Source: Gammaproteobacteria bacterium (GTDB lineage Bacteria; Pseudomonadota; Gammaproteobacteria; Steroidobacterales; Steroidobacteraceae). From it: DNA of 40,359 nt. The notes beneath the pieces were generated by a model. It was given only the letters and a program-made list of their open reading frames with translations, was not told where the DNA came from and made no database searches. Shown here piece by piece: positions 4,516 through 40,263 of this stretch; position 1 is the first letter of the stretch; every line of letters begins with the position of its first letter. The stretch is from the NCBI GenBank assembly GCA_003132425.1, contig PKXS01000016.1, positions 3,994-44,352 on the forward strand. Reading direction: 5' to 3'. Position numbers and translations under genes: made by a program.

Positions 4516-4779
4516 GAGGGCCTCTTTAGGGGGTAATCCGTAGGGGACGGGATATCTTATATAGGTGAGCGCGGCGGCGGGCTTAGACCGAGGTCTCAAT
4601 TACTCACCCTCCGCTCACTTCCGGGCGCGCCGGCGAGTGACTTTGTGAACGGATGCACTGATTGGGGCGCGGCCGTGGGGCATCGCCTGTCACAGGCAAC
4701 CTTGAGATGCTGATGGCGCACTTCTATTCCGTATACGGTCCGTTCCGGACAGATGGGCAACAGATCATTTCGGCGGTGA

Positions 4780-4998
4780 GTGTCAAGATAGTTGACGCCT
4801 GATTCGGGATTGGGCAGCTTCCTTGTCCGGATTGAGGACCACCAGGCCGACCGGATTCCAGTTTCGGGTCGTCGAAGTCCAGCGGTCAGGATTGGACCGA
4901 CGGGCGGGTTGGTAGAGATCATGCCGGCACCCCAAATGTCGCCCCTTCACGGCCCTGGTGGTGCTGGCCCGCATGGGCTTTCCGTTATCCCAGTGCAG
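4780..4998 (-). mobile_element. IS3-family transposase (OrfB) remnant with the 3' IS end
   Basis: Leftward from 4998 one open frame reads LHWDNGKPMRASTT, the DNG segment of the IS3-type DDE integrase core. After only about 15 residues it reads RRSNPDRWTSTTRNWNPVG and VVLNPDKEAA to a TGA at 4783, the usual C-terminus of these transposases. The roughly 60-80 residues normally between these blocks (including the catalytic Glu) are missing, as is everything upstream of DNG. The outer edge GTGTCAAGATAGTTG at 4780 is probably the terminal-repeat side, because a related sequence recurs at 7288. The element is inactive. Confidence 0.8.
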
Positions 4999-5499
4999 AG
5001 GTCGTCTGTGCGTTCGCGCACAAAGGTATTTACGTACGGGAGCCTGGGATCGCAGCGAAAGCGACGCCGGCCGCCGGAATGTTCGCGAGTGGGCTGTATG
5101 CCAAGACCGTTAATGGTACTCCCCAGGTCGCCATCGGCGTGGCGACGCACAGATGCCACCCAATATCGCATTCGTCCCCCCGTTGTAAACCGGCTTGCAA
5201 CATTTACCAGCGGCTGGTCAAATTTCAGCGCCCATTCATCGTCACGCCGCAGTTTCGCATCAAGACTTGGGCACCCTTTATTAGGTCTGATTCGGCCTTA
5301 TGTGGTCCGTCGCACATACTCTTGTAGAAAATAAGTGGACGGTACACGTAATTGGAAGTTCTTCGCCAAATCGTCGTCGCGATAGATGCGTGTAGCCACG
5401 CCTGGGTCGCCTATGGAATGGACACATTATGAAAACTGCGTTATTCGCCCGAGCTACGACGAGCATAACCGCGCACCATACAAATTCGGGCGGTACACG
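4999..5499. other. Gene-poor, eroded stretch with no recognisable gene
   Basis: About 500 bases between the IS3 fragment and the EAL remnant. Short open frames on both strands show no convincing family signature. A rightward frame near 5360-5410 reads VVAIDACSHAW before a stop, which weakly recalls the start of IS110-type DEDD transposases but is too short to claim. AT content is higher than in the catabolic region to the right. Best read as further decayed DNA. Confidence 0.4.
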
Positions 5500-5796
5500 C
5501 CGGACGATACGGTGAATTCCGCGATGGCGCTCGCGAATCTCACCGCCTTATGCGCCAAGCCATGGGCGTTCCCATGCCTATTAACGACTTCGGCACCGGT
5601 TTCTCTTCGCTCAGGTACCTGGGGAAAATTGCCCTTCCACACGCTAAGGATAGCTCGCCCATTTGTAACCGACATGACAACTGAACCGGAAGGACTTGTG
5701 CTGGCTTCCACCGTTAGCCATCTTGCGCCTTCCGTGAAGCCTAACGTGCTGGCAGAAGGCATCGAAGCCGAACACCAATCGCGTCTCATCGCCTCC
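5500..5796 (+). pseudogene. EAL-domain (cyclic-di-GMP phosphodiesterase) remnant
   Basis: Conserved EAL-domain blocks appear in order but in different frames: LANLTALCA, then MGVPMPINDFGTGFSSLRYL in a second frame (EAL proteins have DDFGTGYSSL). Back in the first frame come LPFHTLRIARPFVTDM (usual: LKIDRSFV) and VLAEGIEAEHQSRLI (usual: VVAEGVET). Two frameshifts are needed, one near 5558-5562 and one in the GGGGAAAA run at about 5621-5628. The catalytic EAL motif and the N-terminal half are absent. The piece ends about 20 bases before the start of the sigma-54-type regulator. It is dead as an enzyme; original family membership is clear from the conserved order of blocks. Confidence 0.8.
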
Positions 5797-5818
5797 CAAA
5801 ATCATTGGAGAGACTCCC

Positions 5819-7255
5819 ATGAATCCTGACTCGCCTCCCATCACAACCTCCCTCGGCTTTGACATTAAACACAGCGGCTCCAGACTCCGCAAGAACGCTG
5901 TCAAGCCGCCGGCGGTTCATCCGCACAAAGCTAGAGTTCTGGTTGTAGACAATGACCCAGCTTTGCGTCGACTCTTGAGTATTCGTCTTGGCGCCGCGAA
6001 CTATGAGGTGGAATCAGTGCATAGTGCGCAAGCGGCACTAGATGCGTGCATGCGATTGCGTCCGAATCTCGTGATTACCGAATTGCGAATGGAGCAGATG
6101 AACGGGCTCGGTCTACTGAAGGAATTGAAGAGCCGTTGGCCGGAATTGAGCGTGATCATCTTGACCGCCTACGGCACGATACCCGAGGCCGTGCAGGCCA
6201 CCCAGTGCGGTGCGTTTGGCTTTCTAGTGAAACCAGTGGATAAATCTGAATTATTAGGACAAGTGCAACGAGCGATTAAGGCCTCGACTTTCACGCACAT
6301 CGAGGGCGACTGGCGGGCGGACATTGTTTCGCGCAGTCAACTCATGGAGGACCGATTAAGACAAGCCAATGGGGCTGCGGGCACCGATGCGCCGGTAATG
6401 TTAATGGGCGAAAGTGGAACCGGAAAAGAACTCTTTGCGCGTGCCATTCACGCCGCAAGTGCGCGTCGCGAGAAACCCTTCATCGCCGTCGCATGTCAAA
6501 CTCTGGTCGAAGGCTTGCTGGAAGCGGAACTCTTCGGCCATGAGACGGGCGCGTCCTGCGGTACGACCGCGTCGGATTTGGGAGCATTTCAAGCAGCGCA
6601 CGGGGGCACATTATTGCTCCATGAAATCGGCAATTTGCCGATTGCGCTGCAAGTTAGGCTCATGCAAGCGTTGCGCGAAGACCACGAACTCAAGGGAGAG
6701 AGTCCAGCGCGTGCCGATGTGCGACTCATCTGCACAACATCTCGCGACCTGAAGCTACTGATAAATAGCGGCCAATTTCGTGAAGATTTATATTACCGAA
6801 TAAACGTTTTGCCGATTGAGGTACCTCCTTTGGGGCGTCGTCGCGAAGACATTCCATTGTTGGTCTCGCACTTTCTGGAGCAAGCCACTGAGGCGAGCGG
6901 CCTCACGAAAATATATTCACCGAAAGCGGTGGAATTGCTTGTGACCACGGATTGGCCCGGGAACGTTCGGCAGCTCTTCGATTTAGTGAAGCAGAACGTT
7001 ATCCTTTCGCAGGGTAAGGTGATGACGGAAGAATTTGTGCAGCAATCGTTGAGAAGCGACTCAACTCGAATCCCTTCCTACGATGATGCGCGCGATGAGT
7101 TCTCGCACGATTACCTTGTAAAGAATTTGCAAAGTACCGCAGGCAATGTAAGCAAATCAGCCCGCCTCGCCAAGCGCAATCGCACCGATTTCTACAAACT
7201 TCTGTCACGCTATCGAGTACTGGCGGAGGACTTTAAGAGGATCCCGCATCTCTAA
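5819..7255 (+). CDS. GlrR/QseF-like sigma-54 activator with degenerate receiver and AAA+ motifs
   Basis: A 478-residue protein with the order receiver (about 38-155), AAA+ domain (about 165-400) and a Fis-type helix-turn-helix ending NRTDFYKLLSRYRVLAEDF, as in GlrR of enterobacteria. Walker A is intact (GESGTGKE, 197-204), as is the arginine region REDLYYR (321-327). Three signature positions differ from the family: the phospho-acceptor Asp is Glu88 (VITELRM); the sigma-54-contacting GAFTGA loop is GASCGT (244-249); and the Walker B Asp is His268 (LLLHEIG). Receiver Thr116 and Lys138 are kept. A ribosome site GGAGAG precedes ATG 5819. No kinase gene is adjacent. It cannot work as a normal bacterial enhancer-binding protein if these residues are essential here, but the reading frame is intact; a sigma-54-independent DNA-binding role is possible. 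Confidence 0.88.
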   Translation: MNPDSPPITTSLGFDIKHSGSRLRKNAVKPPAVHPHKARVLVVDNDPALRRLLSIRLGAANYEVESVHSAQAALDACMRLRPNLVITELRMEQMNGLGLLKELKSRWPELSVIILTAYGTIPEAVQATQCGAFGFLVKPVDKSELLGQVQRAIKASTFTHIEGDWRADIVSRSQLMEDRLRQANGAAGTDAPVMLMGESGTGKELFARAIHAASARREKPFIAVACQTLVEGLLEAELFGHETGASCGTTASDLGAFQAAHGGTLLLHEIGNLPIALQVRLMQALREDHELKGESPARADVRLICTTSRDLKLLINSGQFREDLYYRINVLPIEVPPLGRRREDIPLLVSHFLEQATEASGLTKIYSPKAVELLVTTDWPGNVRQLFDLVKQNVILSQGKVMTEEFVQQSLRSDSTRIPSYDDARDEFSHDYLVKNLQSTAGNVSKSARLAKRNRTDFYKLLSRYRVLAEDFKRIPHL

Positions 7256-7287
7256 ACGCTCACTGGTACGCACGAGATGTCGAAGGA

Positions 7288-7369
7288 GTGTCAAGATCGT
7301 TGTCGCCTGAGTCGGCTCGCTGCTTCGGCAATCTCTATCCTGCGCATTGAGAATCACCAAAGCGAGCGG
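7288..7369 (-). mobile_element. Second IS3-type 3' end remnant
   Basis: GTGTCAAGATCGTTGTCGCC at 7288 matches the IS end at 4780 with about 25 of the first 29 bases identical. After an offset of seven bases, a second block at 7346-7369 matches 4831-4854 with about 18 of 24 identical. Both copies have the same orientation. In the transposase frame this piece reads PLALVILN, against PVGLVVLN in the other copy. It overlaps the last dozen codons of the NCS1 permease. Confidence 0.65.
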
Positions 7370-8840
7370 CGAGATAATACGCCGGGCTCACGACGAGCAA
7401 TCCCACGATCCACGAGAAATCGATGCCGCCCATCGCGCGGGCAATCGGGCCCGTGTAAATATCGCTCGCGATAAATGGAACCTGCACCACTATTCCCAGC
7501 AGATAACAGGCGATGGCCGCGACGTTGTACCTACCGTAGACGCCGCCGTCGGCCGCAAAGAACGAAGGGACGTCGTAATTGCCGTGTCGGATCAGGTAGT
7601 AATCCACCAGGTTCACCGCAGTCCACGGCACCATGAGATAGAGAAGAATCTCGTTGAAGCGTCCGTAAAGCGGCAGGAAATTCGCTGCGCCGACCAGGCC
7701 TATCAAGAGCGCGGCAAAGAAGATGCCCGTGGCGATCAGCACCCGCGCTCGCGAGCTCGCCTGCCAACCCGTCGCAAAGGTTTGAGCCAGCGTGATCACC
7801 GCCAGCGCGCCGCCGTACAGGCAAATGGCGCCCGCGACCGCAACGCCCGGCGCGAACAGCAGCACGATCGCCGTACTCGCGCGGCCGGTGAGCCGTGAGA
7901 TCGCCGCGACGACGTCGCCGTCGATGACGGCCGGCCCGATCAGCGCGCCGAGGATCATCGGCACGACTGCGCCCACGACGGTGCCCCAATAGCAGGACCA
8001 GAAGGCCTGGCGCGGGCCCGTATCGGGCGGCAAGTAGCGCGAATAGTCGGACACATAGGGCGCGTACGAGAGCTGCCAGAATGCGCCGATGGAGACCATC
8101 CCGAAGAACCCGACGGCTGAAAATCCTCCGTGAGTCAGAAATGTGTCGGGCACGCGATTAACGAATAGGATCCAAACGTAGCACAGCAACACGGCGCCGC
8201 CCGCGACGTAGGTCATGAGCCGCGTGCACACGTGGATCAAATCATGTCCGAAGATCGCCGCCGCAAGACTAATGAGGCCGATCGCCACAATGCACGACTG
8301 TTCGCTGACCCCGGGCAGTACGGCGTGAAGGGATTGTCCACCTGTCACCAAGGCGGTCGCGGCATATCCCACGTACATGAATACGACAAGTGCAACGACG
8401 GACGCGGCGCCCCGCGCACCGAACTGGCCCCGGCTTTGCACCATCTGCGGCACGCCGAGCCGCGGGCCCTGCGCGGCATGCAGAGCCATGAAGATGGTGC
8501 CGACGAGGTTCCCGATGACGATGGCGATAGTCCCCCACAGGAACGACTGGCCGAAGAGCGTCGTCGCCAGCGCACCGGTGACGACGGTCAGTACGTTTAT
8601 GTTGGCGCCGAGCCATAGCGTGAATAGGTGGCGCGCCTTGCCGTGCCTCTGATCGAGCGGGATTTGGTAAATCGTGTGCTGTTCGATGCGCGTCGGCCGT
8701 GTTCGGCTGCGCGGCGCCGGCAAACTCATCGCGGCGGATACGCTCGGGTCATTGAGCGGACGAGCGTCGGGCAAATAGCTGTCGCGGCTTCGCATCGTCG
8801 GAAAAACATTGGCTCGAACATCGGCGAGCAGTATAGTCAC
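7335..8840 (-). CDS. NCS1-family nucleobase/hydantoin-type permease
   Basis: A 501-residue inner-membrane transporter of the nucleobase:cation symporter-1 family, with about 12 hydrophobic segments. Typical blocks are the N-terminal HTIYQIPLDQRHGKARHLF followed by LWLGANINVLTVVTGALA, the GGQFGARG-type loop (SRGQFGARGAASVV), and YVSDYSRYLP before the central helices. Substrates in this family are purines, pyrimidines, hydantoins, allantoin or thiamine; the sequence does not decide. The GTG start at 8840 has AAGGA six bases upstream; a later Met at residue 38 would give a more usual N-terminus. The last codons (about RFGDSQCAG) fall in a sequence related to an IS3 end, so the original C-terminus may have been replaced. 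It is divergent from the dimethylformamidase-like gene at 8900, sharing a 59-base promoter region. Confidence 0.88.
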   Translation of the reverse strand: MTILLADVRANVFPTMRSRDSYLPDARPLNDPSVSAAMSLPAPRSRTRPTRIEQHTIYQIPLDQRHGKARHLFTLWLGANINVLTVVTGALATTLFGQSFLWGTIAIVIGNLVGTIFMALHAAQGPRLGVPQMVQSRGQFGARGAASVVALVVFMYVGYAATALVTGGQSLHAVLPGVSEQSCIVAIGLISLAAAIFGHDLIHVCTRLMTYVAGGAVLLCYVWILFVNRVPDTFLTHGGFSAVGFFGMVSIGAFWQLSYAPYVSDYSRYLPPDTGPRQAFWSCYWGTVVGAVVPMILGALIGPAVIDGDVVAAISRLTGRASTAIVLLFAPGVAVAGAICLYGGALAVITLAQTFATGWQASSRARVLIATGIFFAALLIGLVGAANFLPLYGRFNEILLYLMVPWTAVNLVDYYLIRHGNYDVPSFFAADGGVYGRYNVAAIACYLLGIVVQVPFIASDIYTGPIARAMGGIDFSWIVGLLVVSPAYYLAARFGDSQCAG

Positions 8841-8899: not shown

Positions 8900-10528
8900 A
8901 TGACGATCGATTTTCCGGATTTCGGCCTGACCCCCGAACAACGCCGCGAAGCCGTTTTCGGACATCGCTACGAATATCCGGGCATGTACGGCGAACGCGG
9001 CGAGATCTGGTGCTACACCGACGCTTTTGCCTATCCACCGGGCGGCACGCTGCGCCTGCACGTAAGCTCGAGCGCTGCGCGATATCAACTCGCGATCATC
9101 CGCGACGGCGCGATCGCTGCGCTGATGCTGGAGCGCGCTATCTCCGGTGCGCGCTGGCAGGACACTGCGGAGCAATGCTCGGTCCTCGGCTGCGGCTGGG
9201 AAACATCCCTGGAGTTTCGGATCGGGGATGACTGGCCCTCCGGCGCCTATCGCATCACCTTGACGGCGCAGGGCCGCGATGGCACGCCGATTCACGCGCA
9301 GCATCTGTTCATCGTGCGGCCGCTTGCCGGCCCAAAGCCGAGTCGCATCCTGCAGGTCGCGGCGACGGGATCGTGGACCGCGTACAACACCTGGGGCGGC
9401 TCGAACCATTATCAAGGAATCACTGGAGCGCGGCGCAACCAATACGCGACGACGGTCAGTATCGAGCGACCGTGGTGCCGCGGCTTCGTCCTCCTGCCGG
9501 AGGGCGCGCCCCGAGTGCCGCTGGAAATTTCCACCCCGGCCGCCGCAGCACCGCGCTACCCTCACCTGGAATGGGCGTTCGCCAACGGCTATTCCAACAA
9601 GTACGGCTCATCGGGCTGGGCGAGTTACGACAGGCATTTCTTCCACTGGGCTGAGCGCACGGGCTTTGCCGTCGATCTGGCCAGCCAGCACGAATTGCAG
9701 TTCAACCCGGAAATTCTCGACGGCTACGACTGCGTCGTCTTTGTCGGTCACGACGAATACTGGACCTGGGAGATGCGCGACGCGATCGACGCCTATATTG
9801 AGCGCGGCGGACACGTTGCCAGGTTTGCCGGCAATTTCATGTGGCAGACGCGCTTGGAGCGCGGCGGCAAATCGCAGGTTTGCTATAAGTATCGCGCCCG
9901 CGTGGAGGATCCGGTCTACAAGTCCGCTGACCCCTCGCGCACCTCCGGCTCGTGGGAAGCCCGCGAGACCGGACGCCCTGGAGCCATGACCTTCGGTCTT
10001 AACGCGACCAACGGGCTGTATGCCGGCTGGGGCGGCTGCGCGCCGCGCGGCGTCCGCGGTTTTCCCGTTTATCGGCCCGAACACTGGGCGTTTGCCGGTA
10101 CCGGTATCTACTACGGGGACCTACTTGGCGCCGAGGGTCATGCCTTCGGATACGAGGTCGATGGACTGGACTACGTCATCCGCGCCGGCCTGCCCGAGCC
10201 CAGCGAGACGAGCGGAGCGCCGGACGGATTGACAATCCTCGCTCTCGGCCTATCGTCGCTCAAAGAAGAGCGCATCAACCTCGCCTTCGACGATCGATTC
10301 CTCTCCGACGACGATGCGAGATTCGTCGCTGAGACTCTGCTCGGAGATGGCGGCGATGCCGCGGTGGAGCGCGTCAAGCGCGGTGCCGGCATGATTGTCC
10401 ACTTCACGCGCGGCAAGGGCGAAGTGTTTCATGCCGGCAGCTGCGAATGGGTGGCGGCGCTCTCGAGACACGATGCGATGGTTGAACTCGTCACCACAAA
10501 CGTGCTGCGCCGTTATCTTGGCCGTTGA
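8900..10528 (+). CDS. N,N-dimethylformamidase large (beta) subunit-like amidohydrolase
   Basis: A 542-residue homologue of the large subunit of dimethylformamidase, an iron-dependent amidohydrolase that splits N-substituted formamides. The N-terminal half has a lectin-like region (GGTLRLHVSS onward). The catalytic half contains TGSWTAYNTWGGSNHY, YDRHFFHWAER, VGHDEYWTWEMRD and FHAGSCEWVAAL. Known enzymes hold a mononuclear iron with two Tyr and one Glu; Tyr in the YDRHFF and HDEYW segments and Glu in SCEW are candidates, which is inference. No small (alpha) subunit gene is next to it, so the true substrate may be another amide. It starts a rightward group with an alpha/beta hydrolase and an ABM protein and is divergent from a permease, consistent with uptake and hydrolysis of a nitrogenous compound. 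Confidence 0.85.
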   Translation: MTIDFPDFGLTPEQRREAVFGHRYEYPGMYGERGEIWCYTDAFAYPPGGTLRLHVSSSAARYQLAIIRDGAIAALMLERAISGARWQDTAEQCSVLGCGWETSLEFRIGDDWPSGAYRITLTAQGRDGTPIHAQHLFIVRPLAGPKPSRILQVAATGSWTAYNTWGGSNHYQGITGARRNQYATTVSIERPWCRGFVLLPEGAPRVPLEISTPAAAAPRYPHLEWAFANGYSNKYGSSGWASYDRHFFHWAERTGFAVDLASQHELQFNPEILDGYDCVVFVGHDEYWTWEMRDAIDAYIERGGHVARFAGNFMWQTRLERGGKSQVCYKYRARVEDPVYKSADPSRTSGSWEARETGRPGAMTFGLNATNGLYAGWGGCAPRGVRGFPVYRPEHWAFAGTGIYYGDLLGAEGHAFGYEVDGLDYVIRAGLPEPSETSGAPDGLTILALGLSSLKEERINLAFDDRFLSDDDARFVAETLLGDGGDAAVERVKRGAGMIVHFTRGKGEVFHAGSCEWVAALSRHDAMVELVTTNVLRRYLGR

Positions 10529-40099: not shown

Positions 40100-40263
40100 A
40101 TCGTCACTGATCCCGGCGAGCCCGTCATTCAGATGTGTCATGCACTGCATCGTTTCGCTTTGCGAAGCAAAGTAAACGCAATGGCTGGCCCGATGCAAGT
40201 GTCTTGGCAATGCGACACAGATGGACCCGGTAGGTTAGCCGTTGGCCTGCCGAACGGAAGCTC

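Follow-up and report, generated by a model that had tools for sequence, protein, structure and literature searches.

An orphan GlrR/QseF paralogue, probably uncoupled from sigma-54, in a bacterial family whose GlrR proteins appear to have lost the sigma-54 contact loop repeatedly

What remains of an enhancer-binding protein once the loop with which it contacts sigma-54 has gone, and is that remainder maintained? The question is raised by a gene at 5819-7255, on the forward strand, of the 40,359-nucleotide stretch of DNA analysed here (the window). Its product resembles GlrR, which in E. coli is an envelope-stress regulator. The original prediction, made from the DNA letters, described a GlrR-like protein with Glu at the receiver's phospho-acceptor position, GASCGT in place of GAFTGA and His where Walker B normally has its Asp, and saw in it a DNA-binding, perhaps constitutively active, protein kept by selection after losing its hold on sigma-54 polymerase.

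The gene and its surroundings

All three substitutions are present in the codons. An alignment of the window protein with the 27 other distinct GlrR copies of its genus, from which the motif positions are taken, places Glu88 at the phospho-acceptor, residues 244-249 (coded GGC GCG TCC TGC GGT ACG) at GAFTGA and His268 at the first acidic residue of Walker B. The frame is uninterrupted, specifies 478 amino acids and has GGAGAG ahead of its ATG start. The features of the locus are as follows.

4778..4807, + strand: left copy of a 30-nt direct repeat
5386..5829, + strand: EAL-domain remnant next to the gene on its upstream side (a weak match: E 0.0011, which misses Pfam's cut-off)
5819..7255, + strand: orphan GlrR (QseF) paralogue with receiver, AAA+, lid and HTH; 478 aa
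5930..6283, + strand: receiver domain, residues 38-155 (Pfam Response_reg 40-149; structure model)
6080..6082, + strand: Glu88 (GAA) at the phospho-acceptor position (alignment, codon)
6407..6430, + strand: Walker A GESGTGKE, residues 197-204, including K203, retained
6548..6565, + strand: GASCGT replacing GAFTGA, the sigma-54 contact loop, residues 244-249 (pLDDT <50)
6620..6622, + strand: His268 (CAT) replacing the Walker B Asp; Glu269 retained
6776..6802, + strand: FREDLYYRI, with both arginine-finger positions, R321 and R327, retained
7142..7210, + strand: C-terminal HTH, residues 442-464; recognition helix core RNRTDFYKLLSR, as in the genome's canonical GlrR
7286..7315, + strand: right copy of the direct repeat, 90% identical to the left

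R321 and R327, whose positions are named from PspF, are taken here to be the arginine fingers; the sensor II Arg is also retained. Pfam recognizes Response_reg (40-149), Sigma54_activat (169-334) and AAA_lid_14 (341-415) in the protein and reports no HTH family at E 0.001. The HTH is supported by the match to the GlrR model, which spans residues 36-473, by the identity of RNRTDFYKLLSR with the genome's other GlrR and by predicted helices at 444-450 and 455-464. An AlphaFold2 model is confident for receiver, AAA+, lid and HTH and falls below pLDDT 50 in the former GAFTGA loop (244-251) and at 288-297; its pTM of 0.52 means that the arrangement of the domains is not reliable. The best fold match is Brucella NtrX (5m7p), followed by NtrC1, NtrC4, LuxO, FleQ and, among the first 20, VpsR (7v2b).

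Among curated families the nearest is GlrR (NF011695), at 460.3 bits against a cut-off of 763, the window protein being the only one scored. Identity with E. coli GlrR is 46.6% over residues 22-473. The gene carries the GlrR HTH signature RNR[TS][DE]FY[KR]LL, which was derived from the alignments of the present analysis, in the form RNRTDFYKLLSR; RNRTDFYKL occurs in 107 of the 114 GlrR copies of the family, 69 of them without the loop motif and 38 with it. What marks a sigma-54 activator is incomplete in the protein: the loop reads GASCGT rather than GAFTGA or a tolerated variant, and K203 and E269 are kept beside a D268-to-His change. A lost loop 1 motif combined with an HTH under selection, in a genome that has rpoN, corresponds instead to the GAFTGA-less, sigma-70-type class.

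In line with the prediction, no GlrK-like kinase gene was found among the window's frames of more than 60 aa, nor was a lipoprotein gene. The IS3 debris said to flank the gene was not borne out, since Pfam found no transposase in the three left-flank frames that were scanned (4599-4922, 4792-5331 and 5389-5826); what was seen there instead is the weak EAL remnant and the direct repeat. The repeat brackets the block formed by the remnant and the glrR paralogue, and its 23-base core (up to three mismatches) occurs at these two places only in the genome; it is possibly the scar of the block's arrival. Genes adjoining this block encode a cytosine/purine permease (7338-8840) and a dimethylformamidase-like protein (8900-10525). 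A purine/cytosine permease next to the paralogue is common to the window and locus L109; across all nine paralogue loci described below, no gene family other than the regulator's own frames occurs in more than two.

A search of 5350-7400 for a consensus sigma-70 promoter returned none (1.2 expected). The GlrR target pattern TGTC-N10-GACA, with one mismatch allowed, was found 8 times in the window against 12.4 expected, and its one exact site lies at 40200-40217. The genome as a whole has 45 single sites, compared with 21 for the reversed pattern, and no GlrR-type clusters, no two of the 45 lying within 200 bases of each other.

Kinase-free paralogues in the genus

A GlrR-type match at E 1e-80, the threshold for counting a genus copy, is present in 19 of the 23 genomes of the genus and absent from four; nine genomes hold two copies. 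On a tree of 98 rows, made by a quick method without the motif columns and leaving 39 of its 95 inner branches open, seven of the second copies join the window gene in one clade (SH-aLRT 100), of which the window gene is the first branch; the ninth paralogue, L041, whose sequence is interrupted by a stretch of N, was omitted. The clade is nested within the GlrR of the genus, apart from 10 more distant rows, in agreement with the description of the protein as GlrR-like. Contamination of the assembly is unlikely, because the window gene groups with paralogues from seven other genomes of the same genus.

None of the 28 GlrR copies found in the genus, 19 of 19 canonical and 9 of 9 paralogous, has a GAFTGA-like motif; a copy from the sister genus (L136) has GAFTGA. 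As the canonical copies lack the motif too, uncoupling from sigma-54 most likely preceded the duplication. The canonical GlrR of the window's own genome (L002), 64% identical to the window protein, illustrates the point: its loop is GAFPGA, so that the motif Thr is lost there as well, and it keeps the phospho-Asp. Two frames precede this gene, one of them akin to the GlrK of sister genomes and the other, a short one, to the lipoprotein gene found there. A GlrK-like gene stands upstream at 16 of the 17 canonical loci scanned in the genus, and the seventeenth (L077) begins at a contig end. A scan of the eight other paralogue loci returned no kinase or lipoprotein gene, the one exception being L054, where the opposite strand gave a weak kinase match (57 bits).

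Two general explanations for the missing motif were ruled out. Sigma-54 itself has not been lost, since rpoN was found throughout the genus (23 of 23 genomes, 22 of them above the cut-off) and in all but one of the 150 family genomes (149, with 147 above it). Nor is GAFTGA lost generally in the genus, as an NtrC-like regulator used as a control retains GAFTGA in 22 and GSFTGA in one of the 23 genomes. In the window's own genome, four other enhancer-binding proteins retain GAFTGA or GSFTGA, and a further regulator, L005 (G000:C125:62341-63681), lacks it (ALFGSERDGRVEF), so that GlrR is not the only one with such a loss. We take L005 to be of the NtrX type, and the gene upstream of it to encode an NtrY-like kinase.

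Among the paralogues, only the window gene combines all three substitutions. Glu at the phospho-acceptor position is found in two of the nine (the window gene and L030, which lie apart on the tree) and in none of the 186 other readable receivers; the remaining seven keep Asp88, which indicates that constitutive activity is not a trait of the clade. Of the seven other paralogues with sequence there, all have lost R327 and four have lost R321, and in L039 the Walker B Asp has become Glu. That different parts of the motor are broken in different paralogues is to be expected if hydrolysis no longer matters. The Walker A Lys is kept in 9 of 9 and the sensor II Arg in all eight with sequence there, and nucleotide binding may therefore still matter.

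Recurrent loss of the loop across the family

The pattern extends well beyond the genus. With retention defined as G[AS][FYW]TGA, 40 of 114 GlrR copies of the family keep the motif and 74 do not, compared with 75 that keep it and 8 that do not among the 83 class copies from outside the family. Copies were counted only above thresholds of E 1e-120 (family) and 1e-105 (class), which 49 of 150 family genomes and 199 of 281 class genomes did not pass. The family set leaves out G088, which has one internal TGA, and the partial G152 and second G146 piece; four class rows (L288, L328, L330 and L333) have another HTH and may not be GlrR. The lost copies include the conservative GAFSGA, which may still work, in three family members (L035, L169 and L186) and in three of the class's eight; the other class losses are three GAFTDA, one NAFTGA and one deletion. 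Several of the family losses are deletions of the whole loop. On a tree of 138 rows, which left out L041, L033, L226 and L227 and kept 28 of the 83 class rows, the trait changes at least eight times, and well-supported branches give seven independent pairs; were loss irreversible, the tree would imply 12 separate losses, 10 of them within the family. A GlrR-like gene of Arenicella (L124, 4001-5338), without GAFTGA and with a degenerate Walker B, sits on a very long branch and is apparently a separate loss.

Much of the system stays in place around these losses. The phospho-Asp is retained in 186 of 186 readable receivers outside the paralogues, and kinase and lipoprotein genes are present at the other loci of the group whether or not GAFTGA is kept, the exceptions (L069, L099 and L110) being loci that start near a contig end. 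The kinase is also present at L112-L115 and L118, which are enteric-like and Oceanospirillales-like loci, with no match there to this lipoprotein. Several hundred bases upstream of glrK, TGTC-N10-GACA sites were seen in an enterobacterium, a Saccharospirillum and a Natronospirillum, as pairs in L112 (828 and 891) and L115 (1131 and 1196) and singly in L114 (1296); they perhaps mark a glmY-like small RNA outside the enterics.

The Walker B Asp survives in all 40 family copies that carry the loop motif and in 45 of the 65 that do not, a difference plain in the raw counts that a test on independent pairs did not find significant (median p 1). Divergence of the AAA+ domain relative to receiver plus HTH has a median ratio of 3.45 in the family without GAFTGA (31 pairs) and 1.86 with it (19 pairs; one-sided p 2.7e-6). 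The same ratio is 0.89 for class copies that keep the motif, at larger distances, and 1.40 for the paralogues (4 pairs), which shows that it depends on distance and makes the within-family comparison the fairer one. From the sequences, the decay would seem to start with the loop and to proceed to Walker B or the arginine fingers, in an order that differs.

Selection, precedents and rival readings

Whether the window gene is maintained was addressed with a branch codon model, written for the present analysis, on GlrR copies. On the gene's own branch the tip omega is 0.085, and omega = 1 is rejected (2dlnL 25.9); synonymous sites are probably near saturation. For comparison, the canonical GlrR of the genus has an omega of 0.015, the background copies with GAFTGA 0.046 and the other paralogues 0.107; with a smaller set of taxa, the whole-gene estimate was 0.079. 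By domain, each compared with 1 and not with one another, omega on this branch is 0.05 for the HTH and 0.047 for the lid (omega = 1 rejected for each, p ~1e-5), 0.052 for the receiver (not quite rejected, p 0.064) and 0.31 for AAA+ (not rejected, p 0.12). Stem-branch values for lid and HTH reached the optimiser's bound and were not used. Purifying selection is thus significant for the gene as a whole, the lid and the HTH, falls just short of significance for the receiver and is not significant for AAA+.

These figures bear directly on the possibility that an old paralogue has been caught early in pseudogenisation, its frame left open so far by luck in a decaying stretch of DNA between repeats. 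The upstream EAL remnant, the missing recognizable promoter, the three altered catalytic or signalling residues, an AAA+ omega indistinguishable from 1 and the marginal p for the receiver all suit it. Yet neutrality is rejected not only for the gene as a whole but also for the lid and the HTH individually, and a GGAGAG still precedes the start codon. Moreover, of 500 randomly substituted copies of the gene per level, 33 stayed open at 0.05 substitutions per base, 8 at 0.1 and none at 0.2, against a fitted tip branch of 0.75 per codon, or about 0.25 per base. We consider pseudogenisation unlikely. Less probable by some way is that the protein still activates sigma-54 and simply tolerates GASCGT and His268. 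It is true that the protein retains Walker A, Glu269, both fingers and the sensor II Arg, that the fold is modelled as a normal enhancer-binding AAA+ and that rpoN is present, but the loop has lost both its Phe and its Thr, and changes at these positions mostly abolish sigma-54 activation (excerpts of PMC3162934). In the other eight paralogues, furthermore, the loop is unrecognizable or deleted, and that of the window protein has an identity of 0.32 with them.

The window protein could also be a dominant-negative partner, forming mixed oligomers with canonical GlrR through receiver and AAA+ and poisoning or tuning it instead of working on DNA by itself. Retained fingers beside a broken Walker B would be the classical pattern of a poison subunit, and on average receiver and lid are 71% and 64% identical to those of canonical GlrR in the genus. 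The loss from the other paralogues of these fingers, which act across the subunit interface, speaks against such a role, as does the constraint on the HTH, which argues for selection on DNA binding itself; we find it about as doubtful as pseudogenisation, perhaps a shade more so.

The reading that we prefer, with a probability of roughly 0.6, is that the gene encodes a DNA-binding regulator that is locked on, works without sigma-54 and acts at promoters of the sigma-70 type. In this lineage GlrR would already have been uncoupled from sigma-54 when duplication gave rise to a kinase-less paralogue. Glu88, which probably corresponds to D56 of QseF, would hold the receiver in a phosphorylated-like form, so that the protein could oligomerise without a kinase and sit permanently on GlrR-type sites. 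If it binds ATP, the AAA+ ring would serve as a scaffold for oligomerisation rather than as a motor, and permanent occupancy would then translate into regulation of sigma-70-type promoters. The most likely route is that it occupies sites belonging to the GlrR of its own genome, or competes for them.

Several known systems bear on this reading. TyrR and DhaR, loop-defective homologues like the window protein, lack a receiver. Excerpts of PMC3162934 name both, along with HupR, as sigma-70-dependent homologues whose loop is defective; they note about 110 homologues with changes of this kind, Pro being favoured where the Thr normally stands, with which the GAFPGA of the genome's canonical GlrR agrees. 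Vibrio cholerae VpsR has a deletion within its GAFTGA sequence (PMC3162934, in part); VpsR and Brucella NtrX differ in belonging to other subfamilies, and VpsR binds c-di-GMP (title of PDB entry 7v2b). Closest in domain order and HTH signature is the Enterobacteriaceae QseE-QseG-QseF system, which the canonical relatives of the window gene also resemble in following kinase and lipoprotein genes; the window gene departs from it in lacking GAFTGA, the Walker B Asp and an adjacent kinase or lipoprotein gene and in having Glu at the phospho-acceptor. The consulted parts of PMC6075780 report that E. coli QseF requires phosphorylation by QseE for activity, and that phosphomimetic QseF-D56E drives very high glmY expression independently of QseG, which is direct precedent for the predicted effect of an Asp-to-Glu change. 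Glu is not phosphomimetic in every response regulator, however, as strains with Caulobacter NtrC D56E or D56A showed wild-type growth in complex medium (PMC10274813, in part). The NtrC proteins of Rhodobacter capsulatus and Caulobacter share an enhancer-binding architecture without the sigma-54 loop and, according to the same excerpts, act at sigma-70 promoters; in contrast with the window protein they belong to the NtrC family and have a phospho-Asp and a kinase, and Caulobacter NtrC still needs its Walker A and B residues (PMC10274813). Together, the QseF-D56E, loop-defect and GAFTGA-less NtrC precedents favour a kinase-independent DNA-binding regulator, be it a repressor or an activator. 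No GAFTGA-less GlrR or QseF is announced in the titles and abstract openings of the literature searched; the supplement of PMC3162934 lists proteins with defective motifs and may include QseF-like ones.

The original prediction was therefore partly supported, right in its core and too local: the loop is lost as described, and uncoupling from sigma-54 is probably not the work of this gene alone, being common to the 28 copies of the genus and recurrent in the family. Judged from sequence, the larger finding is this repeated uncoupling of GlrR within one family. Its fullest form, which we put forward tentatively and at a little under even odds, is that GlrR came apart from sigma-54 again and again in a family where sigma-54 itself persists, and that, as its motor decayed, the kinase, the lipoprotein, the phospho-Asp and the DNA-binding domain stayed. 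One genus would then have produced kinase-free paralogues, two of which independently acquired a phosphomimetic Glu and became permanently "on" competitors of GlrR, a natural stepwise series from an AAA+ motor activator to an ordinary sigma-70 regulator.

Loss of sigma-54 contact has already been documented for particular proteins or orders, such as NtrC, TyrR, HupR and VpsR (as far as the cited excerpts go). Here a single orthologous regulator in a conserved operon has, on the assumption that losses are never reversed, undergone some ten of them independently within one family, alongside related copies that are intact. This combination makes the order of motor decay, and the way in which motor-driven activation is replaced, directly testable. 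It also suggests that names containing "sigma-54-dependent" would mislead for most GlrR copies of the family.
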